Shown one piece after another: positions 1-28,650 of a stretch of DNA of 64,000 bases. Source of the DNA: Sordariomycetes sp. S80-01Y. Lineage: Eukaryota > Ascomycota > Sordariomycetes. The notes beneath the pieces were generated by a model, which was not told the DNA's origin, searched no databases, and saw nothing but the letters and a program-made list of their open reading frames with translations. The translations under genes were made by a program, and so were the position numbers. Each line of letters starts with the position of its first letter. Position 1 is the stretch's first letter. Where the stretch lies: assembly GCA_037042185.1 (NCBI GenBank), contig JAXQJY010000020.1, positions 620,001 to 684,000 of the forward strand, given 5' to 3'.

Positions 1-812
1 TAACACCGGCTGTGGCGCCCATGCCGAAAGTCAGGAATGGGTTCTTCGTGTTTTTGACATTGGTGCGGGCCGCAACAGCTTCTTTGATGACGTTGTAAGA
101 GCCCATGCGGACGGCGACGGTGGCTGACTGCTTCATGGTCGTCGAGATGAGGCCACGGTAGAGCTCGGTGATGCCACGTTCGGCGACAATGGTTCGTAGA
201 GCATGGAAACCTCCCCTGTAGCGCTTCGTTGCTGATCGAGCGTCGTCGATTCTATGGGAAGTCAGCTCATGTTCATGAATTGTAGTCCGCGCTTCAACGT
301 ACAGGGCAGTCTTGACGCGCTCAGTGGGCGTCACGGCGACAACGCTCTCGACGGCACCGGCGCACATCCCAGCCGCTATCGCTCTTGCAGGCGACAGCTT
401 CCCATCTGAGTCCACCAGCTGACTCTTGATAGCGTCAAATGACAGGAATCGAACGCCAGCCTTGAAGGCAGTTCCCAGTATCAGCGTTGAGCAGCCCGTG
501 TAGATGGCGCGGATGCCATCTTGGCGAGCAGTCTGCGACACCACGGCAAGAGGGTTTCTTGATACAGGAGCACCAGTGCTTTTGCTGAGCTGCGCCCTTG
601 TTTTGGCGAATTCGAAGGGGTACTGGATTCTGGTTAGACATGCCCCGGAGATGCTAAGGATGGGCCAGGCTTACTGTAGCTGTTGCTTCAACGGCTCCTC
701 CGATCGCGCCTGATAATAAGGAGACACCGGGCGTGACGACTTTCTTCTTTGCTTCGAGCTTCTCCAGCTGAGGCTTTGAAGCTACCAGTTGAGGTTGCGC
801 GATGGTAGCCAT
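1..812 (-). CDS. Mitochondrial tricarboxylate carrier (CTP1/MttA-like), 3' end off the window
   Basis: Three exons on the minus strand, 812-675, 622-303 and 251-1, with introns of 52 and 51 bp (donors GTAAGC and GTACGT). The protein is a mitochondrial carrier (SLC25), an inner-membrane exchanger of citrate, cis-aconitate or related tricarboxylates. Repeat 1 has the Px[DE]xx[KR] signature as YPFEFAKTR and repeat 2 has it as TPTERVKT. The conserved stretches KAGVRFLSF, TALIDDA and TTMKQSA are typical of tricarboxylate carriers. Repeat 3 starts at the window edge, so the C-terminus is missing. The YPFEFAKT form of repeat 1 recalls, from memory, the branch containing Aspergillus terreus MttA more than canonical CTP1, which usually reads YPLEF. 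The gene is divergent from a Zn2Cys6 regulator that is followed by a PrpF isomerase, so a role in moving aconitate or citrate for that locus is inferred. The family is certain; the substrate is not. Confidence 0.93.
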
Positions 813-1376
813 GATGTGATGTGTCCGTTCTCTCACGCAGATGTGGTTTAAGGAGGAGAAGACTTCACCCTGGGCGAGATTGAGAAGAACTGCACTGCGA
901 GATTCTGCTCTGCTTCGGAATCTGACCGAGCCTGGTCAGATTATCATGAGATCCTTTGGATTTCCAAGATCTGGAGTCTTGGGCGTTGCGCGTTCGAGAG
1001 GTTCGGGCAAAGTCCGAGAGGGAGACGGCTGCATGGTGAGAGCGGACACAGCCCATTTTTGATGACTAGGCCCAAACGGAGACCCGTAGTGACCAAAAGA
1101 GCCGCGTTTTCCAGTCCTCGTCGACAGTAGAGCTATTTTGGCTGCAGCGATATCGCCTGTCTCGAGATAGAAGGTTGAAGCTCTCCAAAGGGTTCAGGAG
1201 CGGAAGCGGGCTGGTGGAGTTCCCCCAATTTCTCCACAGTCAATTCAGGTTCCCGCGGGGAGAAGCAGTTCCCGGTCTTCCCGTCATCGGCTTCCAGTTC
1301 CCGTGGATGGCTGCCCTCAAACTCCTCCCATCTTCTGCTCCCCTCGTGTCGCTTATCCCGCAAGGCCAGAAACGAG
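813..1376. other. Divergent promoter region between carrier and Zn2Cys6 regulator
   Basis: These 564 bp lie between the start codons of two divergent genes and must hold both promoters and 5' leaders. One CGG-N7-CCG palindrome is visible (listed separately). The short open frames here look fortuitous. Confidence 0.6.
916..928. promoter_or_regulatory. Candidate Zn2Cys6 binding palindrome CGG-N7-CCG
   Basis: CGG at 916-918 and CCG at 926-928 form an inverted pair with a 7-bp spacer. It lies 104 bp upstream of the carrier start codon, in the promoter shared with the regulator. Zn2Cys6 dimers commonly bind inverted CGG half-sites. A match this short can occur by chance, so the call is tentative. 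Confidence 0.3.
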
Positions 1377-3859
1377 ATGCAGTCCAGCCGCGGAAAGGCC
1401 CCTTCCCGCGACAGCGCGCGCACTAAACGCTCCCGTCGACGGGCAGCGGAAGCGTGCTCATTCTGCCGCCGGCGCAAGGTTCGTTGACAGCCCCGCGATG
1501 AATGTGAGCGAATACGGACTGAGCTGGAGCAGATCAAATGCAACGCCGAGAGGCCCACCTGCAACAATTGCAAGACGTACGAGAATGAGTGCGTCTATGA
1601 GCCCATCCCCGAGGAGGCCAAGGAGGCTGGTCGAGAGAGGCACGTGCGCACCAAACGGCGCAAGACTGAAGCTTCTACTCCCGACAGGACGCAGAAGAGC
1701 TCTTCTGCTAGACAGTCAGAGTCGCCTCTGCCGCAGACTCCTGATGTGAGAGATGGAGCGGATAAGGAGACTTCGCAGACCTGGAGACCGGCGCCTGAGC
1801 GGGCATCTGAAGCCAGCGTATCGAGGATCTTGGTCTCTGCTAACGGAGTGTCGAGCTACCATGGACGGACCAGTGCCTTGTTTGAGGACAACATCCAGGA
1901 GAGACCACCAAAGGCCGATCAGAGGCGCATGCCGGATGACTGGGTAGAACGTGGTCTCGTCGCCGAAGCAGCGCGACAGCGTCAGATGGAAGAGCTCAAC
2001 TTCCGTCAGGGCAAGCTCGACTTCGACGGCGTCGATCCAGATCTGGGCATGCACCTCCTCTCCCTCCATTGGAACCGACAGCATCACTCATTCCTGCTCA
2101 CCTACCGACCGGCCTTCATGAGGGACATGGCCTGCAACGGGCCGTACTTCTCCAAGCTGCTCCTCAACGCAATTTACTTCGGCGCTTCCAAGTTCAGCCC
2201 AAGGCTGGAAGTGCGGAAAGATCCAAACGACGTCCGCACGGCGGGATGGCAGTATCGAGAGCGCGTGAGGGAGCTCCTCGGCGGCGCGCTCGACCGTAGC
2301 GATGTTACCACCATCCAAGCTTTGCTGGTCATGACGAATTCGCTGTTTGCGCTGGGTGACGAGAGGAGCGCGGCTTGGCTCTACGCCGGTCTTGCGTTCC
2401 GGATGTTGATTGATTTGGGAATGCACGTTGATTTGACAAGCACACGTCGGTTCTCGGACGAAGATCTCGAGATCAGAAGACGGGTGTTCTGGGGAGCGTT
2501 TGGTGAGTTGCCCCTTTTCTTCTGCTGATTCAGGGGCTAAAGTTCGCAGTTGTCGACAAGATCCAAAGTCTGTACCAGGGTCGGCCCGTCAGCCTCAAAG
2601 AGTCTGAGGCGCTCGTCCCCATCAAGTTTCTCGATACGTTTGAGGAGCTCGAGCACTGGCAGCCATTTGCGTACTCGACCTCGGCGACGGACTATCCAGG
2701 TTCGCCAGCGTACAGCATCTCGACCTTCACCTTCCTCTGCAAGCTGTCCATCACCATGAGCGACATCCTCGGCTGCATCTACACGGAACGAAGCTCGGAT
2801 CAGAGTCCAACGGAACTGGCTGGTATGCTCGAGAAGCTACAGTTGAAGCTGGATAGATGGCAGTCCTCTCTACCCACGCATCTCCAATTCGATCCTGCAA
2901 AGTCAAACAGGGGTACATTTCCACCACCGCATGTCTTCAGTCTTCAGTAAGCTTTCTCCTTAAAATTTCACGGGTCCTAGGCTAACACTGAGAGCGCGAT
3001 GCACAACGTCCTCGTCATCCTCCTCCACCGCCCTTTCGTGGCGGACGGCCATCTCTACAGCACCTCCCGCTCGATATCGGTCGACTGCTTCATGAAATGC
3101 GCGACCGCCGCGTCGAGCATCAGCAACCTCCTGCGCGCGTACCACCGGGCCTTCTCCACGCGGCGCGCGCCGTACCTCATCTCCTACGCTACCTACGTCG
3201 CTGCCACGATCCACTCCCGCATCGCCGCCAGGAGGGGGAACGACTCGACCGCGCACGCGAACCTGGCCACCTGCCTGGCCGTCTTCAAGGAGAATCAGGA
3301 AACGAATTCGGCGGTCGCGAAAGCAGCCATGATCGTGGAGAATCTCATGAAGAAGCTCGGAGTCGTGGTCGACAGGATCTCCAGCGATGCTCTGGAAATG
3401 ACCATCCCGAGCAGATCCCGAGACGACATTCAAGGCACTTCCGTCGAGGAGCCCCGTCCCGAGGCAGAAGCGCAACCCGTCACGGCTAAGCTCCCCGCAA
3501 CGCCCGCCCTGGGGAACGGCTTCTCTCCCGGCTCCGACTGGGTGGATATTGACGGCATCATCCAGTCTTTTCTCCACGAGAACGACGGCCACGAACCGGC
3601 AGAACAGCCCAGGCAACAGTGGGTCATGCAACAGCCGGATTCAAGCCAGGTGGTCATGGGACACGGTTTTCCCATGCAGCAAAATCAGATACCCGTTGCT
3701 CAGGACGTGGGGATGGCTCCCGCGGACGGGGGTTACGGGTATCAATGGCAAAGCCAGCAGGGTTGGAGACCGGCAAACAGTGAAGCTGCGAGTATGGAGG
3801 ATCCGCTTTTCGGATTCAACGGCGCTTCCACGGATAGTTTCGCCTTTATGGGGTGGTGA
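1377..3859 (+). CDS. Zn2Cys6 transcription factor with fungal-specific middle homology region
   Basis: Four exons: 1377-1478, 1533-2502, 2550-2946 and 2995-3859. The introns are 54, 47 and 48 bp and the product is 777 residues. The first intron splits the zinc cluster; after splicing it reads C27-x2-C30-x6-C37-x6-C44-x2-C47-x6-C54, an exact Zn2Cys6 binuclear cluster preceded by an Arg/Lys-rich stretch. Residues of roughly 130-450 carry the fungal transcription factor MHR, with blocks such as LLSLHWNRQHHSF, YFSKLLLNAIYFGASKFS and LVILLHRPF. The C-terminal 150 residues are Gln/Pro/Gly-rich and probably an activation region. The start is the first ATG giving an uninterrupted basic N-terminus before Cys27. 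The gene sits between the tricarboxylate carrier (divergent) and a PrpF isomerase (same strand, 202 bp on), as expected of a pathway-specific regulator. Its target genes are inferred from position only. Confidence 0.92.
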
Positions 3860-4036
3860 GCCCGTTCCCGCGGGTAGCGCCCCACGCACAGCCCACGGGA
3901 AGACGACGACGAGACTCCTTTGCACGCGCCACTTTGCAGTCGATCAGCTATCTTCCAAGAAGTCCGTTGCGACGCTTCGCTTATATTCTTCATGCCGCGG
4001 CTCAATGTCGTGCCGTCGATCCGGCGATGGGCTCCA

Positions 4037-4042
4037 TATATA
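4037..4042 (+). promoter_or_regulatory. TATA-like box upstream of the PrpF gene
   Basis: TATATA lies only 20 bp before the first in-frame ATG at 4062. If used in the usual way (initiation some 25-35 bp or more downstream), transcripts would begin at or past that ATG. Translation would then start at the in-frame ATG at 4212, which sits in a CCACC context. Confidence 0.45.
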
Positions 4043-4061
4043 GGCACTCGAGCTGATTAGC

Positions 4062-5559
4062 ATGGCCAGGCACGCCGTATCGCGACGAGCTCTGAGTACA
4101 CTAGTCCAACACACCGAATCTCTTTCTGTGAATCTGCCTGTTCAAGCTCTCTACGCTTCTCGACGAAACCTTCCCAAAACTCTCAAAGTTGTCTGGCCTG
4201 ACCTGCCCACCATGACGGTTGCAGACATCAAGCCTCGACGGCTGAGACGCCATGTGCTGCCTTGCGTGCTGATGCGCGCCGGGACGTCGAAGGGCATGTT
4301 CCTACACAAAGACGACCTGCCGGCAAACCAATCCGAGTGGGCGCCGCATCTTATTTCAGCCCTGGGCTCGCGAGGGAACGACCCTCGTCAAATCGACGGC
4401 GTCGGTGGCGGGACGTCGACAACCTCAAAGGTCGCCGTGGTCTCGCCCTCGAGCCGACCGGATGCAGATGTGGAATTCACCTTTGTGCAAGTCGCAGTCG
4501 GCAAGGAGTCCGTCGACTTCACCGGTACTTGCGGGAACATGGTCTCAGGGGTTGCGCCGTTTGCCGTGCAGGAAGGTCTGGTGAAGCCGAAGCCCGGCTC
4601 AAGATTCGTAAGTTCCCCTGATCTGCTGCTTCTCATGGCTCAGGCTAACAGAGAGATAGATGGACGTCCGCGTGTACAATACCAATACCGACCGAACCGT
4701 TGTCGAAACAGTCGAGATCGACGAGGCTGGCGAGTACGAAGAGGACGGAGAGTACACCATTCCCGGCGTCAACACCACTGGAAGTGAAGTCAAATGCGCC
4801 TTCGTCGATCCGGCGGGGAGCATGACTGGGAAGTTGCTGCCCTCGGGTCAAGCGCAACAAATGCTCCGGGTCCAGCCCCCGTCCACTTTGTCGAATCTTG
4901 AGCCCTTTGACGTGAGGGTATCGCTTGTTGATGCGGCGAACCCCTTTGTCCTGATCGACACCACTTCCATACAGACAATCCTCAATAGCCTGCCTTCGGA
5001 GGACGCCCAGCATGCTCTGGTTGAAACTGTCCGCCGCGAAGGAGCTGTAGCTATGGGTCTGGCCGAATCCGTGGAGGCAGCAGCTCTAGTACGCGGTACC
5101 CCCAAAGCTGCCCTCATGTACCCACCCCCCGCGGGCGGCAAAGTCGATGTCAAAGTGCAGGCCTACTCTATGGGTCTGCCTCATCCGAGCTTGCAGCTCA
5201 CCGGAGCCGTCTGCCTCGCCGCTGCCTTGAGCACACCGGGCACCATCGTCGCGGACCTGCGCTCCAGCCCGCGGAGAGACGCATCGGAGCCTCTGACGCC
5301 GGAAAGGACGCCAAGTCCCGGCAGTGAGAAGGCCGAGCTGGTTCCCGGAAAGCTTGAAAAGGAAAGGGAGGTTGTGATCCAGCACAGCAAGGGAACGATC
5401 AAGGTTGGGGTGGTTATGAGGGAGGACGGAGGGGTTGCGAGCTGTGCCGTGTCAAGAACGGCAAGGCGACTATTCGAGGGGAGAGTAAGGTACTACATCC
5501 AGGAGGTTTTCGAGAAGGTTGGGGCCGTGTTGGCCAGGGAGGTTGAGGCAGCGGGATAG
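4062..5559 (+). CDS. PrpF-family isomerase (aconitate / methylaconitate isomerase type)
   Basis: Two exons, 4062-4607 and 4660-5559, with a 52-bp intron (GTAAGT); 481 residues from the first ATG. The fold is the duplicated diaminopimelate-epimerase-like fold of PrpF (DUF453). Motifs visible are LMRAGTSKGMF (residues about 70-80), GGGTSTTSK with the conserved lysine, and FTGTCGNMVSG with the conserved cysteine. The second half contains GLPHPSLQLTGAVCLAAA. Known relatives include bacterial PrpF, which isomerises 2-methylaconitate, and Ustilago maydis Adi1, which converts cis- to trans-aconitate. The first 50 residues are Arg/Ser-rich and could be a mitochondrial presequence. A TATA box 20 bp upstream and a better ATG context at 4212 make a 431-residue protein starting there at least as likely. 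The family is firm; the substrate is inferred from the neighbouring tricarboxylate carrier. Confidence 0.92.
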
Positions 5560-6720
5560 ATCCACAGGCTTGCAGATAGTCACCGGGATGGCAGAGTCTA
5601 CATCACGTAGTCAGCTCCAATAAGAGAAACCCTCATGTACATCGTAGGGCACAACACTCGCAACCTTGAAAGTCCCGTCTGGCCAACAATGAAGCGTTGC
5701 AACCCGCGGTGGAGAGGTACATCAGCTTCGCTCATGGCCGTCCTATCGCAGAAGAGGGCCGTGCTGAAAATGGCAATGCGGTATGCAGCTTGTGGCCGAG
5801 GCCAATGGGCCGGCCCGCACGTGGTCACTTGATGCCGCACGCAGTGCAGCACCAGCGAAATGGCCTCGAAATGAGTGGACTAATGCTGGCGAGGAATCTC
5901 ACATATTCGCCAGGGGCTGTTCAGCTCACTCAGCAAAGGGGTCTGAAGCCGAAGCTCGACTCGTTTGAGTCGTTGACATGATCCTGCTCTGACTCAGCAG
6001 CCACGGCGCTCGGATTGTTGTTCAGCCGTCCCGCCCAGCCTCCGGATTTATCGCTCGTGATCACGTGTTGGTGGTGCCGATGATGCAAGACTGTTTGTGA
6101 ACACTGTGACGGCCAGAACTCTGCCACCCCCATGGCGTGACTGAAATGCAGCAGCCGAGTCTCGTTGAGCCTTGGAGGCGCTCCATTGGCCGATTAAGCT
6201 TCAACCGGGCTTCCAATTCCTGACTGCACCCCAGGTGCACACGCCCTGAGCCAGATTCCACCCCTTCGCAGACCCGCCTCTTTGCATCGTATCTCGAGCA
6301 GAAGATACTTCTGCACAGGCCAAGCCGTGCCCTGTCGTCATGTACTCTGCGGAGTGGGTACCCCGGCATCGCGGATCTCGAGCCTTGCCCAGTGCTGGCG
6401 CCGCTCTGGGGACGGAGCAGCTTCGAGCTCCCAGCTCCCCAGCTCCCCCTCTCGCCTGTCTCGCCCTCCCTCAGCCGTTGCGCGACCAAAAGGTACATGC
6501 CAATGGCTTGACCATCCCACGTAAAATGATGTACCGATGATGACGGCGCCCGAGGTGGCCAGCCTGGTTGCGCAGCTCCCCCTTCTCCTCTCTTCTTCTC
6601 TTCTCTCTTCCTCCCGACTCGTCTTATCACAACGGTTCCTCGCACACCGGACCCTTAGACGCTTCTCAATTCACATCACTGAAGACTCGAGCGCAAATCC
6701 TCAACACCCCCACATCCACA
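5560..6720. other. Intergenic region
   Basis: No gene is supported in these 1.16 kb. The end nearest the next gene carries a pyrimidine-rich tract at about 6578-6614, typical of fungal core promoters and 5' leaders. Confidence 0.5.
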
Positions 6721-7305
6721 ATGTCTAAGCGCGGCCGCGAGGAAGAGGAGGAGCTTGTCTCCCTGCCCGAGGACGACGACGGCGAGGAGGAGGAGGAGTG
6801 AGTTGCCCCCTGTCGCCCAGATGACGCCAATGCGCCGCCAGCTTCAGCTCTGCTCGAACCTTCATGGCCTGCGGCGTTGAGCTCATCATCAATATGGCAT
6901 TCAAGCTGACCAGCATAGGTACATCTCCACTGGCGACGAAGCAGAAGGCTCCGATGAAGAAGAAGAGGAGGAGGAAGAGGAGGGCGACGAGGAGGACGAC
7001 GAGGAAGAAGAGGAAGCTGAAGCCAACGGTAAGCAATCACCTTTGCGATTGACGGCAAGATCCCTGCTAATCGTCCCTTAGGCGACGAGCCTCCCGCCGC
7101 GAAGAAGCGCAAGACCGAGGAAGCTCCCAACGGCGACGCTGAAGGCGAGGACGAGGAGCCTGCCAAGGGCGATGATGAGGACGAGGACGCCGAAGAGACC
7201 GCCGAGACCTCTGCGCCCGCGAAGGACGCCGTCAAGGCGACCGAGAAGCCTGCTGAGAAGGAGACCGAGGACAAGGCTGTTGCCGCCAACGGCGAGGAGG
7301 CATGA
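6721..7305 (+). CDS. Small, highly acidic protein of unknown function (nuclear-type)
   Basis: Three exons: 6721-6797, 6919-7028 and 7082-7305. The introns are 121 and 53 bp, the frame is kept across both, and the product is 136 residues. Nearly half the residues are Glu or Asp, in long runs. A basic patch PAAKKRKTEE near residue 65 looks like a nuclear localisation signal. The C-terminal half is Glu/Ala/Lys-rich and lacks aromatic residues, so the whole chain should be disordered. The composition resembles acidic histone chaperones and prothymosin-like proteins, but I see no CHZ motif or other defined domain and do not assign a function. The start ATG has a good context (CCACAATG) after a CT-rich leader. 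Clean splicing into one frame supports a real gene. Confidence 0.75.
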
Positions 7306-8140
7306 TGCGCTCCAGCACAAGCGCTGCGCGTTGCAGCTGCTTGGTCTTGAGGTTGGGATGTACGCATTAATACAAAACGGTCGCAACTGATCCTGCTCGA
7401 ACCCGTGACCGCCTGCTCCTGTATTCAGTTGCATTCATCAATTGTTTTCTCCATGAGCGGCGATCGTGAGGGCCTTGGGCATCTGACAGGGTTGAATGAC
7501 TTGCACTCTAACCTGCAGGTTATTGAACAAAGGCAGGGCGAAGCAGCCGCCAGAGGCATCCACGGTAAGCTGCGAAGAGCTCATGATGACTGACTATAAA
7601 TGACCACGCCGTTGCTCTCGTCATCGCTCTCGTCCTTGATATGCAGAGTCCCGTCTTCACGCTGTCGCATGCGACAACACCAAGGCTTACAGCACCTAGG
7701 ACAACAGCTGCGCCCAACCCGACATCGCAGCCACTTTCACTCCACTCAGCTTCAAATTGAACCACCCCCCGTCGCGATTCAACGCGCGCCGCTCGAGCCA
7801 GCCCATGCACCTGGCTTACCCTGCGGCACCCTGAATCGCGCTCCTGGGCGAGGGGGATCGATCGGCGGAGCGAAGGCCCCGGGTCCAGCCTCTACTTCCC
7901 CCTCGTCCTCGTGGGGATCTGGCGATGCTTGGCATCCCGCCGGACGCGATTGGGACCAATTGGCGCATCAACGTCATTGCGCGATGAGGGGGAGGGGCAC
8001 TGGTAGGACGGCCTCTGTATTTACCCACGAGCCTTGATAAGAGGCTCCTCTGCCACGTATCCTTCGCTTTTCTTCCTCCTACCATTTTGAACTTCTCGTC
8101 TAGACTCTACTCTTCCAACCAATTCAACCTGAGATTTTGA
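7306..8140. other. Intergenic region with CCAAT boxes
   Basis: No coding region is convincing in these 835 bp. The part near the aldo/keto reductase has an inverted CCAAT pair (listed separately) and another CCAAT at 8119-8123. Confidence 0.5.
7949..7960. promoter_or_regulatory. Inverted CCAAT pair upstream of the aldo/keto reductase
   Basis: ATTGG at 7949-7953 and CCAAT at 7956-7960 face each other across two bases, about 180 bp before the start codon. CCAAT is the target of the fungal HAP/AnCF complex. The call rests on motif and position only. Confidence 0.35.
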
Positions 8141-9158
8141 ATGTTGCGCGCAACAATGGCTGCCGTCAAGCAAACAACGTGAGTCCCCCTCCTGTTCTGT
8201 ACACATACGTTGGATCACTGTGGTCAACATCAACACCAACGCTGCACTCGCCCTCCCTCACGAGCACCGCTGACGCACACGCAGCCGCACCGCCACCCTC
8301 AACACGGGCGACAAGATCCCCGTCGTCGGCCTGGGCACCTGGCAGTCCCGCCCTAACGAGGTGTCCGTCGCCGTCGAGACCGCCCTGCGCGCCGGCTACC
8401 GCCACATCGACACGGCCCACGCCTACGGCAACGAGAAGGAGGTCGGCGAGGGTATCAAGGCCTCGGGCGTGCCGCGCAAGGACATTTGGCTCACCACCAA
8501 GCTCGACAACCCGTGGCACAAGCACGTCACCGAGGGCCTGGCCGCCTCCCTCGAGGCCCTCCAGACCGACTACCTGGACCTGTTCCTCATGCACTGGCCC
8601 GCCTCGCTCGACGCCGAGGACAAGAGCAAGGTCTACTCCGACTGGGATTTCCGCGACACCTGGCGCGAGATGCAGAAGCTCGTCAGCACGGGCAAGGTGC
8701 GCAACATTGGCGTCTCCAACTTCGACATCACCAACCTCGAGAAGCTGCTGGCGCACCCGGAGTGCAAGATCATTCCCGCCGTCAACCAGATCGAGCTGCA
8801 CCCCGGCCGCCCCTCGCCCAAGCTCGTCGCCTACAACACCTCCAAGGGCATCCACTCCACGGGCTACTCGTGCCTCGGCTCCACCGACTCGCCCCTCTAC
8901 AAGAACCAGGACTTCGTCAAGGTCGCCGAGGCCAAGGGCAAGTCGGTCCAGCAGTGCCTGCTCATGTGGGGGCTGCAGAAGGGCTGGAGCGTCATCCCCA
9001 AGAGCGTCACGCCCAAGCGCATCGAGGCCAACTTCGAGCTGGACGGCTGGTCGCTGAGCGACGAGGAGATGAAGGTCTTTGACTCGATGCCCGATCGCTT
9101 CAAGGTCTGCAACGACAAGTGGCTGCCTGTGCAGGTCTTCTTCGGCGATGATGAATAG
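8141..9158 (+). CDS. Aldo/keto reductase (NADPH-dependent, glycerol dehydrogenase-like)
   Basis: Two exons, 8141-8178 and 8285-9158, with a 106-bp intron; 303 residues. This is an AKR-superfamily TIM barrel that reduces aldehydes or ketones with NADPH. The catalytic tetrad is visible as D55 and Y60 (DTAHAYGNE), K85 (WLTTKLDN) and H116 (FLMHWPAS). The coenzyme loop IPKSVTPKRIEANF is intact. N-terminal KIPVVGLGTWQS and mid-protein IGVSNFDITNLEKLL are hallmark AKR segments. A second in-frame ATG at 8156 would shorten the protein by five residues and has the better context (ACAATGGC). The sequence is closest in feel to fungal GCY1/GLD-type glycerol dehydrogenases, but the substrate cannot be fixed. 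Its 3' end converges on the HIT gene with about 100 bp between stops. Confidence 0.95.
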
Positions 9159-9256
9159 ACTAGTGTAACGAGGTCGCTCGTGGGCGGGGAAGGCAAAAAA
9201 AGTAGATATAGAAAAAAGGCAACGCTTGTGATAAAATGGAAGGAATCGCTCCAGCT

Positions 9257-9820
9257 CTATAACTTGGTCTTGATCTCAAAGTCTTCCTGCAAATCCTTCC
9301 CCTCCTCCGCCATGATCTTGGCCACCTCTTCGCGTATGCGCCCGGCCAGCACCTCGGCCTCCTCGTCGTCGAGCTCCTCCCGCGTCCCCCTGCCAAACAT
9401 GGTGAAGCTCTCCCTCATCCTCCCGCTGGCCCGTATCTCCGGCCGCGGTATGACATGGTAGTGCACGTGCGGAACGACCTGCGCCGCCGCCGCGCCGTTG
9501 TTCTGCACGACGTTCCAGTCCTCGACCCCCGTGGCCCGGCCGACGGCCCTGGAGAGGATGCGCACGGCGGCGCCGAGCCTGCGCGCCTCGGAGGGCGTGG
9601 CGTCCGTGAGCTTGGGGCGGTGTCGTCGCGGCGAGATGAGGAGGTGGCCCCGCGACAGGGGCAGGATGTCGAGGAAGGCGATCAGCGTGGGCGTGGAGAG
9701 GAGGATGAAGGACGCCGGCGTCGTGAGCGTGGGTGAGATGGTGCGCGGTGGTGACGCCGGGTCGTAGGGCTTGTGTGCTGCGGCGATGGCGCAGAAGGGG
9801 CAGGGGAGGTCGGTTGACAT
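9257..9820 (-). CDS. HIT-domain nucleotide-binding protein
   Basis: A single exon of 187 residues. The histidine triad is H118-x-H120-x-H122 in VVPHVHYHV, preceded by the HIT-typical QNNGAAAAQ. The N-terminal CPFC (C7, C10) is the half zinc site common in HINT-like proteins. HIT proteins hydrolyse or transfer nucleoside monophosphates from phosphoramidates, dinucleoside polyphosphates or AMP-lysine conjugates. After the triad comes a charged helical tail of about 60 residues rich in Glu, common in fungal members. The start ATG at 9820 is the only one ahead of the CxxC. The gene converges with the aldo/keto reductase. Confidence 0.93.
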   Translation of the reverse strand: MSTDLPCPFCAIAAAHKPYDPASPPRTISPTLTTPASFILLSTPTLIAFLDILPLSRGHLLISPRRHRPKLTDATPSEARRLGAAVRILSRAVGRATGVEDWNVVQNNGAAAAQVVPHVHYHVIPRPEIRASGRMRESFTMFGRGTREELDDEEAEVLAGRIREEVAKIMAEEGKDLQEDFEIKTKL

Positions 9821-11989
9821 GGCGAGGAGGGCGGTCGGTAGTGAGGGATGTGGTGGTGTGAGTTGGGTTGAAGATTGGGAATTTGAAGCTGCGCGAGATG
9901 GGCCGAGGCTGATCTGAGATGGAAGTCGCGTGGTGACGTGCCGAGTGGGTTAGTCAGTGGGTGACCTGAAGGGGGATTATATTGAAGCAATTGCAACATC
10001 TTTGACAGACAAATACCACTTTTCAGACCAGTTGCGTGACGAATAGAATAATTTCACACTAATTGAAGTTCTTTTTTGTATAGGGGATGACTTCTGCGCC
10101 TGAAAAAGACGAGTGGCTCAGGGACGGCTTGTACTGCACTATCTCAAGCAAGCAATACCATTGAGGCATCGCGGAGATCAAACCTGGCGCCAAAGTTCTT
10201 TATTAGCAAATTCAAAAGAAGACGGTACGCTATGAACAGCTACGATGTCTCGGGTCAGGTGTGTTAATACGGGCCGCTTGCCTGTTCCCTGCCCCTGAAG
10301 CAATTGTGACCTGAACAAGAGTGCGCTCCTGCCACGTATAGACAGGAGGAAACCAAATTTTGCATTCTTTCAAACTTCAGTAATCTTCTCTTGGCGATCA
10401 GATACTAGATTCAGAAGTTGGAATACCTCAGTAATGAGGCTGGTTTCACAATCGGCCGGTCTCTGCTTCTGTCGCTTGCCCGGCGTCGTAAAGGGCTTTG
10501 GCCCGGCATAAGGGGCTTCGAGACAGCAACTGACTCGCACGCCTTCACAAGTCCTGTATCTTTCATCTATATTACAGGAGACCGCTCATAGACAAAGAAG
10601 CAGTGTCTCATAACATATCAGTCTGAGTGAGGATTAACCAATGAAGAACTGACTCCAAGCTGGACTGAAACCTCGCATCATCGGCAGTAGACTCTCCGGA
10701 CCGTACGCTCCTAATAATTCATATGCTACCTTTGATGTGCTCTTTCTACTTGGATAATAAGTGGCTTCGCGCTGGGTAGAGCAGAGCTGAGTCAAGGGAG
10801 AATTGAAGCCCCAGAATGAGCAGCTATCGTCCTCGATATTCGACGCAATGAGTCAGAAATTTGATCTCTCTTCAGCCTTGGTACTTAGAAAAATTCGAGT
10901 TATGAACCCGGACCCCTTCTGTGTCCGTTGCAGACACCGAGACCGGCTCATCGACCTCCCAGCCAACATCGGAGCCGCACACTCCCAGAAGCCACTTCCT
11001 TGTCACTCCTGCTATTACACTAACAGCTTCATACCGTCTCGAACGGTATATAATCCCAATAATACGGTCATAAAGACCTTGCGGCCGACACGTCGGCGAT
11101 TGCTGAACAGCGTAAGCCTTGACTTCTGTCTTCGTGCGGCTCAGGGGCTGCAAGAAGCATCACACTTGGGGTGTGGGGGTCCTGAGGATGGAAAACGACT
11201 CCACGATTCCTTAAAGATCTTCGTAAATTGAAACCCTTGGCGTGGATTCGCGTCACACGGTCGCTCACTGCGCAACGAGCCATCCCGAGGGGAATCCAAC
11301 CACCGACAACTCAGCATCGAATCACACGTGAACGAAGCTCTTTCTACAATGGCGACAAATTACAACAAAGTCCCTAGGTATATCATTGTATCTATGTCTC
11401 TTTACTCTTAGGTAGATTCGGGGGGCATTGCTGACTATGCCATAGGTGCCCCGTGAATGACCTTCCTCGCCAGCTGATACGCCTCGCCGTGATCACCGTC
11501 GATATAGGAAAGCCCCCAACGGCTTCGTATAGGGACCTGAAAGAACATCCATCTCACCCGCAATTATCTCCGGCCCTGGCGGTCTGAAGGAGCACCAAGT
11601 AGTGAGTCAAGACGTTGAGTGCAGGCCGTCAGCTGAGACCGTACTTCAAGAACGCATCTCTTCGTCTGGCACGGACGCAGGTGCCAACGGCCGATTCACG
11701 AGATCTTCGGTGGGTAATTTAGAAGATTCTCCCTTGCGTCCTGCAGCAGACCTCGTGAATTCAGTCTTCATAGAGCTTAAAGGGGTTGGCTCCTTGTAGA
11801 TATCCGCTGGTGAATTACTCTCGAATCCGGTAGCATCGAGTGAAATCCAGGAGACATAAAAACACAAATTTAATATTCACAATGTTGGAAGACCTCGTGA
11901 TAGAAGGTTGGAAAATTCTGCCTCGAGTATCTGTCTACAGCGTCGAGCGTGTTCTTGGACAACCGTGCCACTAAGCGACCGCGACGAAG

Positions 11990-12660
11990 TTAAGTGCTGC
12001 TCGCAGTCTGCGCCATGGCCGGACAGCCTCAATACTGCGGCCGATTCCAATGCCTTCTTTGAGAAGATAGCTGCGGCCGACGAAAATGGTCATCTCGATG
12101 CCCCTGATGTCAAGCCCTCAGCCAACGGCCGCTCCGTCGCCACTGAGCCTCCTTCGTCGCCTCTTCACAAGCCGACGGCGCATCGCCCTCCTCGGCTTCA
12201 TGCTCGAGCAGGTTTCCAGGCGATCCATGATCTTCTCGTCACAAGCAGCAAGAGATAGTCTCTCGAGAACCGAAACTGCATCAGCTAGGAGTTTTCGTCC
12301 GCACTTACAACCGACTCGCCCGCCTAAGCCCGATCGTGATCGCTGAAGACCCTGCGCCACGCGACGGCCCTGCTGCCGCTGACAGCTTCAAGGCAAAGTT
12401 TCTGTACATGCAGGATGCATAGGCGGTGCAAGGCGGGACGGAAGTCCTCGAGTTGGTGCGGCAGTGCTCGAGCATAGGACGCGGCTTCTAGCCCGCTTCT
12501 ATCGCCGAGCGTGCATTGGGGGCCGGCTCCAGGCTACAAAGTGTTGATCTGGAGATCTCGGCAGACTGTATGCTTGACTGCCTCTTTGGGTCGGATGGCC
12601 CGAGGGGGGGATTTGAAGGACGAGCAGCATAGAGCGCTTCGTGCGTGGGATGGTGAGGAC
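11990..12660 (+). pseudogene. Possible decayed coding sequence of unknown family
   Basis: Conceptual translation on the plus strand gives protein-like stretches in changing frames. Examples are NAFFEKIAAADENGHLDAPD near 12.05 kb, VFVRTYNRLARLSPIVIAED near 12.3 kb, and VLELVRQCSSIG then SVDLEISADCMLDCLFG at 12.45-12.6 kb. These runs have balanced hydrophobic and charged content, unlike the low-complexity translations elsewhere in this gap, but they are separated by several stops and frame changes. I cannot name a family. It could be a dead gene or gene fragment, or chance in GC-rich DNA. The limits are approximate. Confidence 0.3.
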
Positions 12661-13748
12661 GGCTCCCGAGGACATTCGGGAGAAGCAACAACACGGGCCA
12701 GTAAGGGCTGAGCACTCTTGAGAGCCAACAAGCCCCCAAAACCAAGAGCCAATATTAGCCCGCTATCGAGTATCATTCTGCGGTCAGACTTTCGTCCACG
12801 CGCTGAAAAGGTGAGAGCCAAGCCGCAGCCGCCCACCTCGTTGTCCGCAACTCCATCCAATCCCTCCTCGCTTCGCCCAACCTTCCAGATGAGCTGCGAT
12901 GCTACTCGAAAGGCGGCAGGATTCCGGCCCGCGTCGACTAGGCCTTTGCGGAAACCCACCGCAGTTCTGTAAGTGATCTCGTCCGATCGGCTGAGGAAGC
13001 TTGATTCAACCTCGGGACCCAAAGACGCGGAACACGCACATGTAGGCAGGCACCAAGCCAACAGCCCGTGACCACTCAGCCGAGAGGTTCTCGATCATCT
13101 AGACGTCCAGTCCTACGATTCTTATGCCCGATCTCCTGGCGCCCAGCAGCACGGGCTGTGAAGGACAGACCTCGGCTGGCAGTTCCGCTACACGTTGGCT
13201 CCCGACGACAATGACGACGGGACCGCAGCGCCCTCGGGCCAACGAGACACCTACCTACATAGTACCCGCGAGCCACCACTCGGCCTGGTGTCTGGACACG
13301 GCAAGCTGCCCGCCCTGCAGGCGACAGCTGAGAGAAGCCGCGGCGAAGCCCACTGCCGTGCGTCCATGCGGTGCGATGCGGCATGCGATAGTGACAAGAC
13401 CTAGATCCGGACGAAGAAGCCGTTGGGGGGTGCTGCTGCTGCGCTGCGAAGCGACGAGGGCACGGCACTGTATTAGCGGGTGCGACGCCTGCTTTTGGTG
13501 GGTGGTGGTCGTGTAGATTTTATGGCCGATCCGCCGCAACGCGTATCCGAGCTGGGATGCCCCGCGCCGGCAAGATGCAGCGGCTTCTGGCGAATCAGGG
13601 GGTCATACCGGGGGGTGGTTGGGCGAGGTTTGGGGGACTCGCTTCTCAGAGCACTGAGTTCAATAGTTGTTTCGAAGTTGAGTGAGGAGATTAGACGCAG
13701 AGGAGAGGGATGAACGGTGAGAGAATTATTTCTTTGTTGTTTCCGTGA

Positions 13749-13762
13749 TTGCTTGCTTGCTG

Positions 13763-13795
<33 letters not shown>

Positions 13796-13809
13796 ATCGC
13801 TTGATCGCT
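13749..13809. repeat. CTTG tetranucleotide microsatellite
   Basis: About ten tandem copies of GCTT/CTTG run from roughly 13749 to 13795, with a GCTG variant early on. Two GATCGCTT copies follow. It lies in non-coding DNA just 3' of the Ser-rich gene. Confidence 0.85.
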
Positions 13810-13980
13810 CGTGTCTAAGTGATACACCTGTGACCTCCCTTCCCATTTCCTACCAGTTTCCGTTTGACGCCATTAAGAGAACAATGACCAGATATCTCCA
13901 ATCCCAATTGATAACCACCGTGATGCAATGAAGAAGTGACCGGCGACGGCCTCTTCACCGAGGGATGCCGCTGTGTCAGC

Positions 13981-14575
13981 TCATCTCTGCGCCCCGGACC
14001 CCTGTCCGCCGTTCCCTCGGTTCTGCGTCAACATGCTCACGAGGCTGTCCACCATCCTGAGCTCGGGCGAGAAGGCAAAGTGGCAGTTGTCGTCGTGCGA
14101 GCCCGCGCCCGCAGTCGTCGCGGAGCTCGAACCGCTGACGGAGCGTGACGAGGGTGTCGAGGCCGAGTCGTTGCTCGACGCGGAGCCGTAGCGCGGCGTG
14201 GATGAGTCGGCGTTGGAGGACATGGCGGTGCTTGTGCTTGTGCTTGCGGGTGAGGCTGGCTCGTAGGTGTGGCTGAGAAAGTCCTCGGCGGGCGGCGTGA
14301 GGACGGGAAGAAGGCGAGGGTCGAGGCGCTTGGAAGATCGCTTCTTGGACGTTGATGATGATGAGGTGGACGAGTGTGTAGATTTCCCGAGTCGCTTACT
14401 TCCCGATTTGGACTTGTGAGAAGCTGTGCGCCGTGTAAGTCGAGGGAGGGATCAACAGGCACGACGGGCGTTCTGGACAGGGCGACGAGGAGTGGGAAGG
14501 GAGAAAAGACTTACACTTGGCCTCGGAGGGTTTGTACTTGTCGTGGCCTGACGAGGTGCCCCGGGGATGCCCCAT
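13981..14575 (-). CDS. Small Ser/Thr-rich protein, unknown function
   Basis: Two exons on the minus strand, 14575-14515 and 14423-13981, with a 91-bp intron (GTAAGT ... CACAG); 167 residues. The N-terminal half is basic and Ser/Lys-rich (KSKSGSKRLGK and similar), followed by RLDPRLLPVLTPPAEDFLSHTY. A low-complexity Ser/Thr region follows, then a C-terminal segment HFAFSPELRMVDSLVSMLTQ that looks like one amphipathic helix and is probably the conserved part. There is no signal peptide or membrane segment. The two ordered patches in a disordered protein suggest a docking or regulatory factor, but I recognise no family. The splice and intact frame across a GC-rich low-complexity region support a real gene. 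Confidence 0.65.
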
Positions 14576-17500
14576 GATTTAAGTACGGGAGAGCCGACCT
14601 CCTAGACCGGTGACGGCACGCGGGCAGGCGGGCTGGCGGACAAGGTTTCACTGGGACCAAAAGGCAAAAGGCAAGGCTTCTCCAGCGAAAATGGTGGTGC
14701 CGGGCGGCGGGCGGCTTGACGGGCGCCGAGATCAGACCCCTGCCTGCCAGATCGAGTATCGGAGGCTCCTGGGCTGTGGGCGCGCACGCAAGGAGGTGAT
14801 GGTGGTGGTGCTGCTGCTACTGCTATAGCAGTGCAGGTATAGGGACTATGGTGCTAGGTCAATGATGCTGGTGCCGGTGCCGGTGCTGGTGCTGTTCGCG
14901 GTCGAGCTCGCCGCAAAGAGACACAGGTCAGGAACAAGAGACAGTTTCGACTTGGCAGAGATCCAGCAGCAGCGGGCATACGGGCTTTCAAAGACATCAG
15001 GGGGGGAGGAGGCGGCCATCCAGGAGCTTTATATCTACGGTCTCAAGCAGAGTAGCGCAGGGCAGCGCAGAGCCAGAGTCATGATTTGATTTAGAGCTGA
15101 GATGAGAGACCAACGCGCAAACAACACAAGACCCTGCATTGCAAGGGCCCGGCGCTCGAGGCCAGCGCTCCATAACGCCGGCGTGCTGACGACGATCTCC
15201 AGCCGGCCGGGCAGTGGGCTCTTAGGCCCGACAGCGCAGCATCAAGCAGCACCACCACCACCAGCAGGACTGCCCGTGCCCGTATCATCGTCGTACCGTT
15301 CGCGGAGCTGGCGTCGAAACGGCAGACGCAGGCTGGCTGTTGGCGACGCATCGAACGCTACATGGCGCCGTTCGAAGCAGCCCCAAGGTACGGAGCACGG
15401 ATACTTCCACTGAGTAAAGGCAAAATGCCCGGTGGTGCAGCAGTGGCGGAGGGCAATATGGGGGCCATCGGCGCGGAGATGGGAGGCCCGTCGGTAGAGG
15501 CCGGCGGTAGAGGGGGCTATCGCCGCTGAGTGAAATTTCGACGGCGGCCGACGTGCCACTGCCAGCGGGCGGCTCTTTGAACCAACCTGAGGTTGCCGCA
15601 AGCTGCTGTTGGTGGTACAGCACCGGCCACCGGCCACCAGCCACCACTACAGGCCCCGGGGCAGCAGCCACCAGCCACTGATGCGCCCTACCACGCAACC
15701 ACTATAGCGCCTGCTGCCAGTCCTGCCGATTACTGTACTCCTTACAGGCTGCTGTGATCTTGCGGCGCTGCAAGGGTGTCGATGTAGGCCCAGCCGGTCG
15801 GTGCCGCATGCCCGGGCATGTCATTGTCCAAATGACTGCCGTTGCGGAATGCCTCCTACTACTATTCCGACTTGGTATATCATAGAGCAGCGCCTGCGCT
15901 ACCACTGCACCCGCTGTCCGTCCACGGGCTCTGCTCTTGGCAGGACTTTGTCTCCCATACGTACCGCCGCAGCAAATAGTCTCCTGCCCAGGGATGCCCT
16001 CGTAACGGTGACGACAGAAAGGCAATTCATCTTCCCGACGACGACGACGACGACGCGGAGGTCCCTAATAGCGGTGATGCGCGCGTGTGCTGATCGTCCC
16101 GCCCCGAAAGATTCCCAAATCCAATCACCAGAATACCATTCCTGCTTCAGTAAATGCCGTCGGAAGCGGTGCCGAGATGCCAAATCAGCGTTTCGCGATT
16201 TCCACCCCGTCCATCCTGTCCTGTCCTGGCCCTTTAGACTCCCCCCCGCCGCCGCTGGGGCCGCCGCTGGGGCGCCAAGTCGTTCCCGCACCTCTGTCTC
16301 ACCAACAACTCATCAAAGCCGCACCCTTTTCCCCATCTAATTCATGCGACTCACCGAACTTCGAGCGAGCGAGCGTCGATGATGGGCCAAGCACGTAGCA
16401 TCGGCGGCGAGCACGGCGGTGGGAATCTCGGGCGTAAGCTCAGTTCCTCTTCGCCGACCGCGGGTTGGCTGCCAGTGCACTGATGCTGCTTCGTAGTACC
16501 GCCAGTAGGATGTCATTATAACGTACTGGCTTACCGCATGTGGCTGAAACGCCCGGGTCTTGCACGGGAGTCTGGACGTATCGCCACTTTCTCGATGTGA
16601 TCAGTGTACATATTTGCAACAGATGCTATGGCGCGGCTATATGGCTTGTTTTTTCGACACTGAACACGCCAGCCAGTCAGCCCACCCGCTGCATTCGCCG
16701 ACAAACCCCGTTGCTCGAAAGAAACGTACTTTCAGGACTCGGGCCAACAGCAGCCAACAACCAACAGCCAGCAGGAAAGATCCGCGCCGTCGCAAAAACA
16801 GCCCGGCATTGATCGTCAGTGCCACCGCCGTCCCCGTGACGGCAGCCAGCACCCCTCCGAACGAACCAACGACACCCGAAGATTCCAGGCAGGGCTAGGA
16901 CTCACCGTCTTGTCGGCCGAGTGTCGGCCGCGAAAAATTGAAGCAGGAGATCAGAGGGGTTCAGTTGGATGCGACGTCGTTCGGGGTGCCGGCAGTTGGG
17001 CGCAGGGGTCCGGCTCGACGGCCGGGCGTTGGGCTGCGCTGGGGAATGTGAGCGACCGCTCGCGCGGGGGGCAAGTGTGTGGCCTTGTAATCATTCTTTA
17101 CGAATTACATGCGCTTTGAAGCTTTGCCGTGGACATGGCCAAAGTTTCTCTCCTTGTGTAGTAATCACGAAAGTCGCCGTGAGCAATTTCCGGATTGGGA
17201 TAATGTTTCTGCAACTGAGGTTGAGTCCGTACGACGCTCAGGAACCGTTTGGCCATCGCAAATGTCTCGTCTTAGCTCGTCAGCATTCAGGCTCCTCCTA
17301 ATGACAAAGTAAGATTTAACCGTAAGAGAAAGCGTAAACGGCAATCCCTGGATCTGGCCAAGGGTAGCGGCGGGGAGAGGGGCACGCATCGCGCTACAGG
17401 GTAGCCAAATCAAGCCCGAGACATCCACCTGACCGCCTTCCTCTAGCATAATTCTGCCGTCAGAAACCCCCACCCATTCGAGTCACCGCCCTCATTTTTT

Positions 17501-17609
17501 GTCATCGCGAACAAAGTCCATCCAACCCAGCTTCACGCACGCGCCTTACCTCTCCGCCCTCCCACGAGCCGCCCCAAACCGACACACACAAACCTCCGCC
17601 GACGTCACC
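14576..17609. other. 3-kb non-coding interval with simple repeats
   Basis: This is the region upstream of both the Ser-rich gene (minus) and the RPB12 gene (plus). Visible structure is limited to short tandem repeats: GCTGGTGCCGGT-type repeats near 14.87 kb, CCACCGG/CCACCAG units near 15.63 kb, a GAC triplet run near 16.04 kb and a duplicated CCGCCGCTGGGG unit near 16.25 kb. The open frames have low-complexity translations. No gene is supported. Confidence 0.5.
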
Positions 17610-17883
17610 ATGCCCCGCGAGGACTACCAGCTCCCCACCGCCGCCGCGCGCGGCTCGACCAACGTGGGCAGCAACACCGACGTGCGCTCCGTCATGACCT
17701 ACCTGTGCGGCGACTGCGGCGGGAGCGTCAGCCTGGGCAAGGACGCGCTGGTTGCGTGTCCGCACTGCGCGGGCAGGGTACTTTACAAGGAGCGGACGAA
17801 GCGGTGAGTCTGGAGATGGAAGTTTGTGCTAGCGATGCGAGTGCTGATGATCTTGTAGCATGGTGCAATTCGAGGCGCGATAG
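17610..17883 (+). CDS. RPC10: RNA polymerases I/II/III shared subunit RPABC4 (Rpb12/Rpc10)
   Basis: Two exons, 17610-17803 and 17859-17883, with a 55-bp intron; 72 residues, against 70 in yeast and 58 in human. This is the smallest zinc-ribbon subunit shared by all three nuclear RNA polymerases; it bridges the two largest-subunit modules. The ribbon is YLCGDCGGS followed by VACPHCAGRVLYK, four cysteines in CxxC pairs. The conserved C-terminus KERTKRMVQFEAR is completed by the tiny second exon, which proves the splice. The N-terminal 30 residues are a variable extension. Its 3' end converges on GPN1, a GTPase needed for RNA polymerase assembly and import. Confidence 0.96.
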
Positions 17884-18065
17884 AAGAGGCACGAGGATAC
17901 GAAAGCGCGTGGATGGAATCGGCATCAGGAAGCGTGGGAGACAGTTAGACCTATGACTGGGAAGGTGCACGGAGTTGCATGATTTGAAATGATATCTTTC
18001 CGAGACGACCGTGTCTGATAAACCCACACAACGCCAGACTCCTTTTCCTAGAAACCCAGAGGCGA

Positions 18066-19279
18066 TCAGCCCTGTCGGTGCAGGTACTTTGCAAAACTCG
18101 CGTCCGCCATGACGCTATCATCATTCCCATCCCCCAGCGCGGCCTGGTACCGCGCCTGCAAGCCCTCCCTCTCCGCAACCGCATCATCTTCGCTGTCGTA
18201 GTCGTCCGCATCGCTCGCCACCTCGAGGTCGTCGTCATCGTCCTTCTTGCCGGGCAGGTCCTGCCCGTGGACGGACATGCCGCCCATCATCTTGTCGAGC
18301 TCCTTGTCGCGGTTCTCCTTCTTGGCCTGCTCGCGCTCCTCTCGCCGCCGCTGCAGCTCGGGCAGGTAGTCGTCTAAGAACTCCTGCTTCTTCTCCCCCA
18401 CCGCCTCGAAGAACTCGTCCATGCCCGTGCCCACCTTTGACGAGACGCCCACGACGCTGAGGTGCGCGTAGAACTCCTCCAGCATCAGGCTCATGCTGTT
18501 CAGCAGAGAGCCCATGTAGCCGCTGCCGCCGTGCCCGCCCTCTCCCCCGCCGAGGTTGTCCTCGCTCTCGTCCCTCCTCAGCGCATCCTGGAAGGCCTCA
18601 AAGTCCGTCATCCACTCCTTGGCAAACTCCGCATCCTTGACGTCCGTCTTGTTGAACACCAGGATCATCGGCAGCTTCGTCTTGTACAGGATGGAGCACG
18701 CGTAGAGCATGTTGCTCATGAAGGTGCTCGTGCTCGTCGTCCGTGGCGTGTCGATAATGTACGCTATGACCGTGGGGAACGAACTCGCCAGACTCTCCAG
18801 CAGGATGGTTCCCGAAGCTGACCAGACGAAGACTTCAATCTGGCCGGGTGTGTCGACCAGGATGTTCTCGATGGGCTTCTTCCCCTCCTGAGGCTTCGCG
18901 CGCTTCTCGAGCAGGTTGACGATCTGATCGACCTTGGTCGCAAACAGATTCAGGCTGGTCAGAATGCCTCCGTTGGGTCCGAGGTTGTACTGCTTCATCA
19001 CCTCCTCGTAGTTGACGCTGTCGCGGATGTCGATGTTGGACTCGAAGGGCGTGGAGAGAACGGCCGGGTCGAGGTTGATAACGTAGGGAGGCTTCTGCTT
19101 CTGGTGGAGGTAGGCATTTACGCGGCGCATGAAGGTTGTTTTACCGGACCCTGAGGGAACGTTAGACGTCGAAGAGCAGCGGGAGACGAGGGAGGTTTAC
19201 CTGCCATGCCGATGCAGACGATGGCGGGGGGCGCTGTTTTGGGGTCAAAGGGCGCATCGTCGGCGGTGGACGAGGCCAT
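18066..19279 (-). CDS. NPA3: GPN-loop GTPase 1 (Npa3/XAB1 homologue)
   Basis: Two exons on the minus strand, 19279-19201 and 19150-18066, with a 50-bp intron; 387 residues. GPN1 acts with GPN2 and GPN3 in assembly and nuclear import of RNA polymerase II. The P-loop GMAGSGKTTF is rebuilt across the intron. The family-defining Gly-Pro-Asn loop is visible in [14 protein letters not shown], the G3 box in DTPGQIEVF and the G4 box in VFNKTDV. After the GTPase core (about residues 20-265) comes a charged coiled coil ([16 protein letters not shown]) and an acidic tail, as in Npa3. The start ATG gives the usual short N-terminus before CIGMAG. It is in tandem with the BUD7-like gene upstream and convergent with RPC10. 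Confidence 0.96.
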
Positions 19280-19610
19280 CGTTGCGCTTTCTGTACAGTC
19301 GCTGTAGGATTCGTGGAGGGACTTGGTGGAGGGATGATGTTGCGATGGAGAGATGAGGAATGGACTTTTTGGCAGTTGGAGCTCTGATGCAAGAAAATCA
19401 ATGCCCCGCCGCGGGGCCGAAGCAGCGTCACCGGCGCGTTCAGCATGGCAGGGGTCCCGGCACTACCTTAGCTTTTATTGACATCCCTTTCGATATTGCG
19501 AGCTCCTCGAATTCAGCCCATATGGCGTACACCATCCATCATGTCTATGTACTCGCCTGCTCTCGGACTTCCCGTGCAATCGTCTAAGCTTCCACCAGCT
19601 CAACAACCTA
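19280..19610. other. Intergenic region (GPN1 promoter)
   Basis: These 331 bp lie between the stop of the ChAPs gene and the start of GPN1, both on the minus strand. No other feature is seen. Confidence 0.5.
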
Positions 19611-21917: not shown

Positions 21918-22693
21918 GGCGACTTGAGCTCCCTCGCGATGGGGGCTGACACCGCGGGCAGACTATTCGGATTGGTGATGGCAGACAGATAGAAGCCGCG
22001 AAGCTGAAGTCGAGGAAGGGAAACTACGCAATGCCGAGCCGAGGAATCCAGGAGTGAGAGCTGCTGATCATTGACTGTCGCAAGTGTGGAAGCTGCAGCT
22101 ATTGATTGTCCTGATTGAGGCACAAGCCAGGGGACTCCTGTGGCTGGTGCCCCGCTATCATCTGCGCCACAGCTCACGTGTCGTTGTTTGTACCTCCTGT
22201 AGAAGAGAGTGGCATTCTCGAAGATCTTTGTTCCCTATTATGGTCGTATTATAGTCTTCCAGAGGATTCACCACGCCCGAACCAACATTGCAGAGCCACT
22301 TCTACGTGCAAGGTGTAGCTTGTGCTCGTAAATGTTGGGTAGCGGCTGAAGCAAGTATGCGGTTGGATGACAGAAGTCCTGAAATGGAATCACGACTGTA
22401 CATGTTCCTTGAATACAAGGTTGGACTAGATGCGCTTAATATGTAGACTAACAAGAGATATCAGACGGAAAGTGAATGCGAATTTATGATCATTGTTTGT
22501 ATCATATCTACGTGCATCGAACGCCAAGAGAAGGGGACAGCATCTTGATCAGTGTTGTCCTCTTTTTGTCAGGCCCGCCCTTAATCGCGTCCCCCAAATC
22601 GCGTCTCCAACGTCGCCCATGGCAGTGATCCATCTTTTCAACTCGGCCATCATCAACTTCAGCATCGATACATGCGGCGCGTCTGGCTTTAAG
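21918..22693. other. Divergent intergenic region (ChAPs gene / HIR3)
   Basis: These 776 bp hold the two divergent promoters. An in-frame upstream ATG for HIR3 occurs at 22619. No other element is recognised. Confidence 0.5.
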
Positions 22694-28600: not shown

Positions 28601-28650
28601 GCGACACAGAGATGGCTGATGTCGAGACGGCCCCGCAGTCGCCGACCTAG
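22694..28650 (+). CDS. HIR3: Histone transcription regulator 3 (HIR complex subunit, CABIN1-like)
   Basis: The first exon is the ATG itself (22694-22696), followed by a 56-bp intron and one long exon 22753-28650; 1966 residues. The N-terminus then reads MPAFQAINLEPEDNVDEQID, as expected for HIR3. An in-frame ATG at 22619 would add 25 residues and is less likely. Hir3 is the large TPR scaffold of the HIR histone chaperone complex (human CABIN1). It deposits H3-H4 independently of replication and represses histone genes. TPR-type helices start near residue 25 (EEAHRRFHRALRLHAQG) and recur through the protein, for example KQVLENWAKALDQDPSDPEL. The last 200 residues are a Glu/Asp tail after a basic stretch (RRTGIRRPDIVRRAEAAVAK), as in fungal orthologues. 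Long antisense frames inside it are shadows of this gene. Confidence 0.95.

Follow-up and report, generated by a model that had tools for sequence, protein, structure and literature searches.

Three genes at the left end of a 64,000-nucleotide stretch of contig JAXQJY010000020.1 of Sordariomycetes sp. S80-01Y (positions 620,001 to 684,000 of the forward strand; hereafter the window) raise the question whether a mitochondrial carrier, a Zn2Cys6 regulator and a PrpF-family isomerase encoded side by side act together on one organic acid and, if so, on which and in which direction. Hand-spliced models of all three genes were well formed (Table 1): carrier and regulator are divergent across 564 bp, and the PrpF-family gene starts 352 bp past the regulator stop on the same strand. 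These models and the Pfam matches confirmed the gene identities and the orientation given by a first-pass annotation, which had regarded the trio as a candidate aconitate/itaconate-type locus. As a tentative reading, we propose that the trio forms a small, possibly co-regulated module handling tricarboxylates. We give roughly even odds to a module controlled by the adjoining regulator and to simple adjacency; the functional reading merits testing on account of a motif present in both intergenic regions and of the neighbourhoods of bacterial relatives.

Table 1. Features at the left end of the window (positions are those of the window).
Feature	Coordinates	Strand	Exons	Evidence
Mitochondrial carrier gene, Ctp1-like, runs off left edge	1..812	-	812-675, 622-303, 251-1	Splicing, PF00153, alignment to provisional Ctp1/MttA sequences
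Divergent intergenic region carrier/regulator	813..1376	.		Gene models
TTCCCGYGG site 1 (TTCCCGCGG)	1250..1258	+		Motif scan
TTCCCGYGG site 2 (TTCCCGTGG)	1298..1306	+		Motif scan
Zn2Cys6 / Fungal_trans regulator gene, 777 aa, four exons	1377..3859	+	1377-1478, 1533-2502, 2550-2946, 2995-3859	Splicing, Pfam
TTCCCGYGG site 3 (TTCCCGCGG), upstream of PrpF	3865..3873	+		Motif scan
TTCCCGYGG site 4 (TTCCCGTGG on minus strand), upstream of PrpF	3893..3901	-		Motif scan
PrpF-family isomerase gene, 431 aa, two exons, K73 and C107 kept	4212..5559	+	4212-4607, 4660-5559	Pfam, alignments, splicing, AlphaFold model, Foldseek

The PrpF-family gene contains one intron, and its product matched PF04303 with 297 bits at a Pfam cut-off of 27. 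A start at the in-frame ATG at 4062, which would add 50 residues as a mitochondrial N-terminal extension, was rejected on its poor codon score (-0.16 per codon vs. 0.00 and +0.09 for the following two blocks of 50); a composition resembling a presequence often arises by chance (of the 1242 ATGs in the window that precede 20 open codons, 136 score as high), and both candidate ATGs (4062 and 4212) have an A at -3. In alignment with Shewanella PrpF (2pvz), the protein has a lysine at K73 and a cysteine at C107, the residues described as mutated in that enzyme (PMC5690661), and both are invariant in the two alignments made (10 and 19 sequences), so that the isomerase assignment of the first-pass annotation is backed by intact PrpF active-site residues. 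By sequence, the closest solved structures were 3-methylitaconate isomerase (166 bits), YbhH (155 bits) and Shewanella PrpF (154 bits), followed by Pseudomonas 2h9f (151 bits) and LigU (147 bits). A structure predicted by AlphaFold with the help of 18 bacterial relatives reached a mean predicted local distance difference test score (pLDDT) of 85 and a predicted template modelling score of 0.83, with pLDDT below 50 only at residues 8-10 and 346-362. When this model was searched with Foldseek, the first 16 rows were all PrpF-family enzymes (Mii, YbhH, PrpF, LigU, PA0793), with a template modelling score by target of 0.84 for Mii 3g7k_A. A PrpF/diaminopimelate-epimerase-like fold is thus predicted with good confidence; it does not pick the substrate, because Mii, YbhH, PrpF and LigU rank at the top with similar Foldseek scores. 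With the 2-methylaconitate isomerase PrpF of Shewanella oneidensis the window protein shares its family, its fold and the lysine-cysteine pair described above, but identity is only about 31%, and no aconitase or citrate-synthase family was found among the window open reading frames (ORFs) scanned with Pfam (selection by length and codon score gave 29 ORFs, of which three belong to the trio and the other 26 were scanned).

The shared motif, TTCCCGYGG, was derived from an eleven-base word common to the carrier/regulator and the PrpF intergenic regions. All four TTCCCGYGG sites of the 64-kb window lie within these two regions, two per region, a distribution that is a new observation of this analysis. 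The whole-window expectation is 1.3 sites, and at least four sites anywhere were obtained in 6 of 100 shuffles; TTCCCG by itself shows no enrichment across the window (35 sites vs. 38 expected), but 6 of its 35 sites fall in the 916 bases of the two intergenic regions. Further controls allowed for a search of all nine-base patterns with one two-fold position. In shuffled sequence, a pattern occurring at least twice in each region was found in 12 of 1000 cases and was also absent elsewhere in 3 of 1000; in real noncoding pairs of the same window, which were delimited by eye and may contain unannotated exons, the corresponding counts were 15 and 8 of 935. These controls place the motif distribution near 1 in 100, with the true chance somewhat higher because word lengths 8 to 12 were first inspected. 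The motif is regarded as a lead for co-regulation and not as its demonstration.

As to the substrate, sequence comparison leans tentatively towards an aconitate-like tricarboxylate. The best tricarboxylate-linked relatives aligned with 248 (L011), 235 (L001) and 205 bits (L002), and six relatives of gallate/protocatechuate type with 145-182 bits (L092 being the 182). At 46 alignment columns distinguishing GalD/LigU from the larger group, the protein agrees with the larger group in 23, with GalD/LigU in 7 and with neither in 16. Bacterial neighbourhoods were collected from two sources. Plasmid tblastn with PrpF matched 336 records; among the matches listed, the top relative came from Rhodococcus opacus (193 bits; neighbours AcnA, a citrate symporter and TctAB), and six fetched relatives accompanied by gallate/protocatechuate genes scored 116-149 bits. 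The 20 plasmid loci inspected had mixed contexts (L010 being without annotation). From bacterial genomes, the best 80 of 580 relatives were taken, and a tricarboxylate marker (a match of at least 100 bits to TcuA, TctA, TctC, AcnA, AcnD or a citrate symporter, with AcnA and AcnD markers matching each other and presumably also ordinary aconitases) was present in 48 of the 80 loci and in 6 of the 10 nearest. For the 46 loci with full flanks, the marker was located within 2.5 kb in 25, at 2.5-5 kb in 11 and at 5-8 kb in 8. PrpB, PrpC, PrpD or LeuC matches were found in 22 of the 80 loci.

Several results weigh against this substrate and, as taken up further below, against a module. Many of those bacteria are rich in tricarboxylate transporter genes, and the distance bins are the only control on chance neighbourhood for the figure of 48 in 80. 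A gallate marker was found in none of the 80 loci, a count that means little because the peptide patterns used for retrieval cannot match six of the seven GalD/LigU references. The tricarboxylate-linked L003, L007 and L101 (188, 180 and 176 bits) score no better than the gallate-operon relative L092. In a quick tree of 102 rows (the window protein, 4 PDB proteins and 97 loci, with L031, L082 and L090 left out for their length and L091 as a copy of L001), the window PrpF has a very long end branch (1.92), none of the starred sets covering at most half of the rows includes it, and it is drawn, with weak support, next to a set including YbhH and GalD/LigU. Approximately unbiased (AU) tests reject none of three placements, namely with GalD/LigU (p 0.13), with AcnD-type PrpF (p 0.465) or with YbhH relatives (p 0.086). 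Among the NCBIfam models, OMA_tautomer (4-oxalomesaconate tautomerase, NF033377) matched best with 267 bits, and prpF (2-methylaconitate isomerase, TIGR02334) reached 192 bits, both far below cut-offs that were set for prokaryotes (440 and 440.55, respectively). The top model and the AU result for the GalD/LigU clade would suit an enzyme of fungal gallate/protocatechuate breakdown that resembles 4-oxalomesaconate tautomerase and has nothing to do with the carrier. Family, fold and best NCBIfam model are indeed shared with LigU/GalD; the pairwise scores of the gallate-type relatives are nevertheless below those of L002, L001 and L011 (yet not consistently below those of L003, L007 and L101), the 46 columns favour the larger group, and no ring-cleaving dioxygenase was found among the window ORFs scanned with Pfam, so that we consider a tautomerase role quite unlikely. 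The NCBIfam preference itself does not separate an aconitate from an oxalomesaconate role, because Adi1 of Ustilago maydis, a proven aconitate isomerase, is likewise listed with an oxalomesaconate tautomerase (of Pseudomonas putida) as the nearest homologue known (PMC4720413 Table 1).

Some relatives carry names that may not fit their neighbours. L003, which adjoins tripartite tricarboxylate transporter genes, and L007, which adjoins TcuB and such transporters, are both annotated as 4-oxalomesaconate tautomerase; the PrpF-named L001, L002 and L101 have similar neighbours, and automatic names may over-assign the gallate role to PrpF relatives. In the part of the tree that contains YbhH, L004 and L097 (Rhizobium and Agrobacterium plasmids) adjoin a divergent LysR gene and ATP-binding cassette transporter genes, and L097 also adjoins a gene of the tannase/feruloyl-esterase family.

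The carrier gene starts with the ATG at 812, and 236 aa are visible, the C-terminal part lying beyond the left edge. Its product matched PF00153 (Mito_carr) with 135 bits, so that the first-pass description as an MttA/CTP1-like mitochondrial carrier holds for the family and is loosely put for the subtype: against provisional sequences of the two references, the visible part appears closer to yeast Ctp1 (46% identity, 181 bits) than to MttA of Aspergillus terreus (33% identity, 114 bits). It also keeps the lysine that aligns with K37 of Ctp1, a residue reported to interact with substrate (PMC9104175). The regulator frame is open throughout its four exons, and the protein matched Zn_clus (42 bits) and Fungal_trans (103 bits); the acceptor of its third intron (GAGAG) looks weak and was picked by reading frame as the sole acceptor translated in the final model. 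The short introns of the window and its Zn2Cys6/Fungal_trans domains suit an ascomycete. Quite possibly, the three genes are chance neighbours, i.e., a housekeeping citrate carrier, an unrelated regulator and a PrpF enzyme with a role of its own, with no module at all. The carrier could, given its nearness to Ctp1, simply be the housekeeping protein, the two intergenic regions show no enrichment of CGG/CCG half-site pairs that could have spoken for the regulator, and the recognised right-hand neighbours are general genes (aldo-keto reductase, HIT protein, ATP_bind_1, ChAPs, DEAD-box helicase, Brix, PP2C, 2-oxoadipate dioxygenase/decarboxylase, flavin adenine dinucleotide (FAD) oxidoreductase, BRF1, kinesin and others). 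Against chance adjacency stand the confinement of the shared motif to the two intergenic regions and the fitting pair formed by an isomerase of a tricarboxylate-linked family and an adjoining tricarboxylate-type carrier.

If the trio does form a tricarboxylate-handling module, we infer that it would work as follows. The PrpF-family enzyme would shift the double bond of an aconitate-like tricarboxylate, most probably cis/trans-aconitate, with the lysine and cysteine equivalent to K73 and C107 carrying out the proton transfer; the Ctp1-like carrier would swap tricarboxylates over the inner mitochondrial membrane; and the Zn2Cys6 protein may turn on all three genes via the TTCCCGYGG sites in both intergenic regions. 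By this route, trans-aconitate, either plant-derived or spontaneously formed, would be returned to cis-aconitate. trans-Aconitate is described as a toxic inhibitor of the tricarboxylic acid cycle that plants accumulate, and U. maydis Adi1 as a cytosolic and nuclear enzyme whose equilibrium lies at 88% trans- to 12% cis-aconitate (PMC4720413). Recovery of cis-aconitate from trans-aconitate seems likelier here than itaconate production because no decarboxylase or nearby exporter is in sight.

The itaconate-type cluster suggested by the first-pass annotation was not supported: no itaconate-type decarboxylase (PrpD/CadA or CMLE/Tad1) or cytochrome P450 was found among the 26 scanned ORFs (short exons or low-scoring ORFs could be missed), and transporter-like ORFs appear only far off at 49.5-51.4 kb. 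On the visible evidence the itaconate interpretation is thus weak. A cluster making itaconate or exporting trans-aconitate would need its decarboxylase and exporter beyond the left edge, which we regard as unlikely, even though carrier, PrpF and regulator together look like part of the U. maydis cluster (Adi1, Mtt1, Tad1, Itp1, Ria1; PMC4720413), which also has a PrpF-family isomerase near a Ctp1-like carrier and a regulator. The parallels extend to the homologues listed there, as a tautomerase model is the best NCBIfam match here and a tautomerase the listed homologue of Adi1, and Ctp1 is given as the closest known homologue of Mtt1 (PMC4720413 Table 1). Because Mtt1 shares this nearness to Ctp1, the position of the window carrier fits more than one role and does not refute the itaconate idea. 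The resemblance to U. maydis ends at the regulator, which is of the Zn2Cys6 class in the window whereas Ria1 is a helix-loop-helix protein (PMC4720413 Table 1; PMC6064134), and at the scanned ORFs of the visible side, which included no Tad1-type or P450 gene; the likeness of Adi1 and Mtt1 to the window proteins is one of description. The suggested likeness to the A. terreus cluster (MttA, CadA, MfsA and a regulator) was likewise borne out in part. A mitochondrial tricarboxylate-type carrier and a regulator of the Zn2Cys6 class are common to both (PMC6447509), but the window carrier appears to lean from MttA to Ctp1, no CadA-type ORF was found among those scanned, and the four-gene cluster, as described in that source, has no PrpF gene. 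In Aspergillus niger, the same source places citrate synthase next to ctpA.

A precedent for how recovery of trans-aconitate could work may be the bacterial tar system, which assimilates trans-aconitate by means of a PrpF-superfamily aconitate isomerase, a transporter and an adjacent regulator with a shared promoter (PMC11495376). The tar operon differs from the window in that its genes are bacterial and that an importer takes the place of the mitochondrial carrier, and TarA was likened to the window enzyme by description. Extended to its fullest form, the analogy would describe an ascomycete trans-aconitate module in which one Zn2Cys6 regulator binds TTCCCGYGG and activates both a PrpF aconitate isomerase and a dedicated Ctp1-derived carrier, as a fungal counterpart of tar that would run counter to the U. 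maydis itaconate pathway; this version is rather improbable.

Farther to the right, several features of the window were recorded. An ORF at 35110-36552 covers the whole profile of the 2-oxoadipate dioxygenase/decarboxylase family (HGLS, PF07063; 493 bits); it too encodes an organic-acid enzyme and lies among general genes, 30 kb from the trio. Three ORF pieces at 49520-51400 match major facilitator superfamily/sugar transporters, although two stay under the Pfam cut-off, and are probably one gene. About 8 kb between the HIT and ATP_bind_1 genes (10000-18000) hold no convincing ORF by codon score, and no direct or inverted repeats of at least 40 bases were found over 5500-23000. The open frame at 22753-28647 (1965 codons) has the highest codon score in the window and matched nothing in Pfam at 0.001. 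Scanning the window with Rfam and for tRNAs yielded nothing, and viral contigs searched for relatives of the carrier and of PrpF gave pattern matches and no relatives.

In the open literature searched, a scope outside which most subscription papers fall, Adi1 of U. maydis is the fungal PrpF enzyme on record among the papers listed. Searches for fungal PrpF enzymes led to the pathway of U. maydis and to its introduction into Aspergillus niger, and the papers listed by a broader search mention neither PrpF nor DUF453. If the three genes are chance neighbours, the finding is an ordinary one. If the enzyme acts on aconitate and the carrier is co-regulated with it, the locus would reveal how these fungi tolerate or exploit trans-aconitate and would provide parts for organic-acid engineering.

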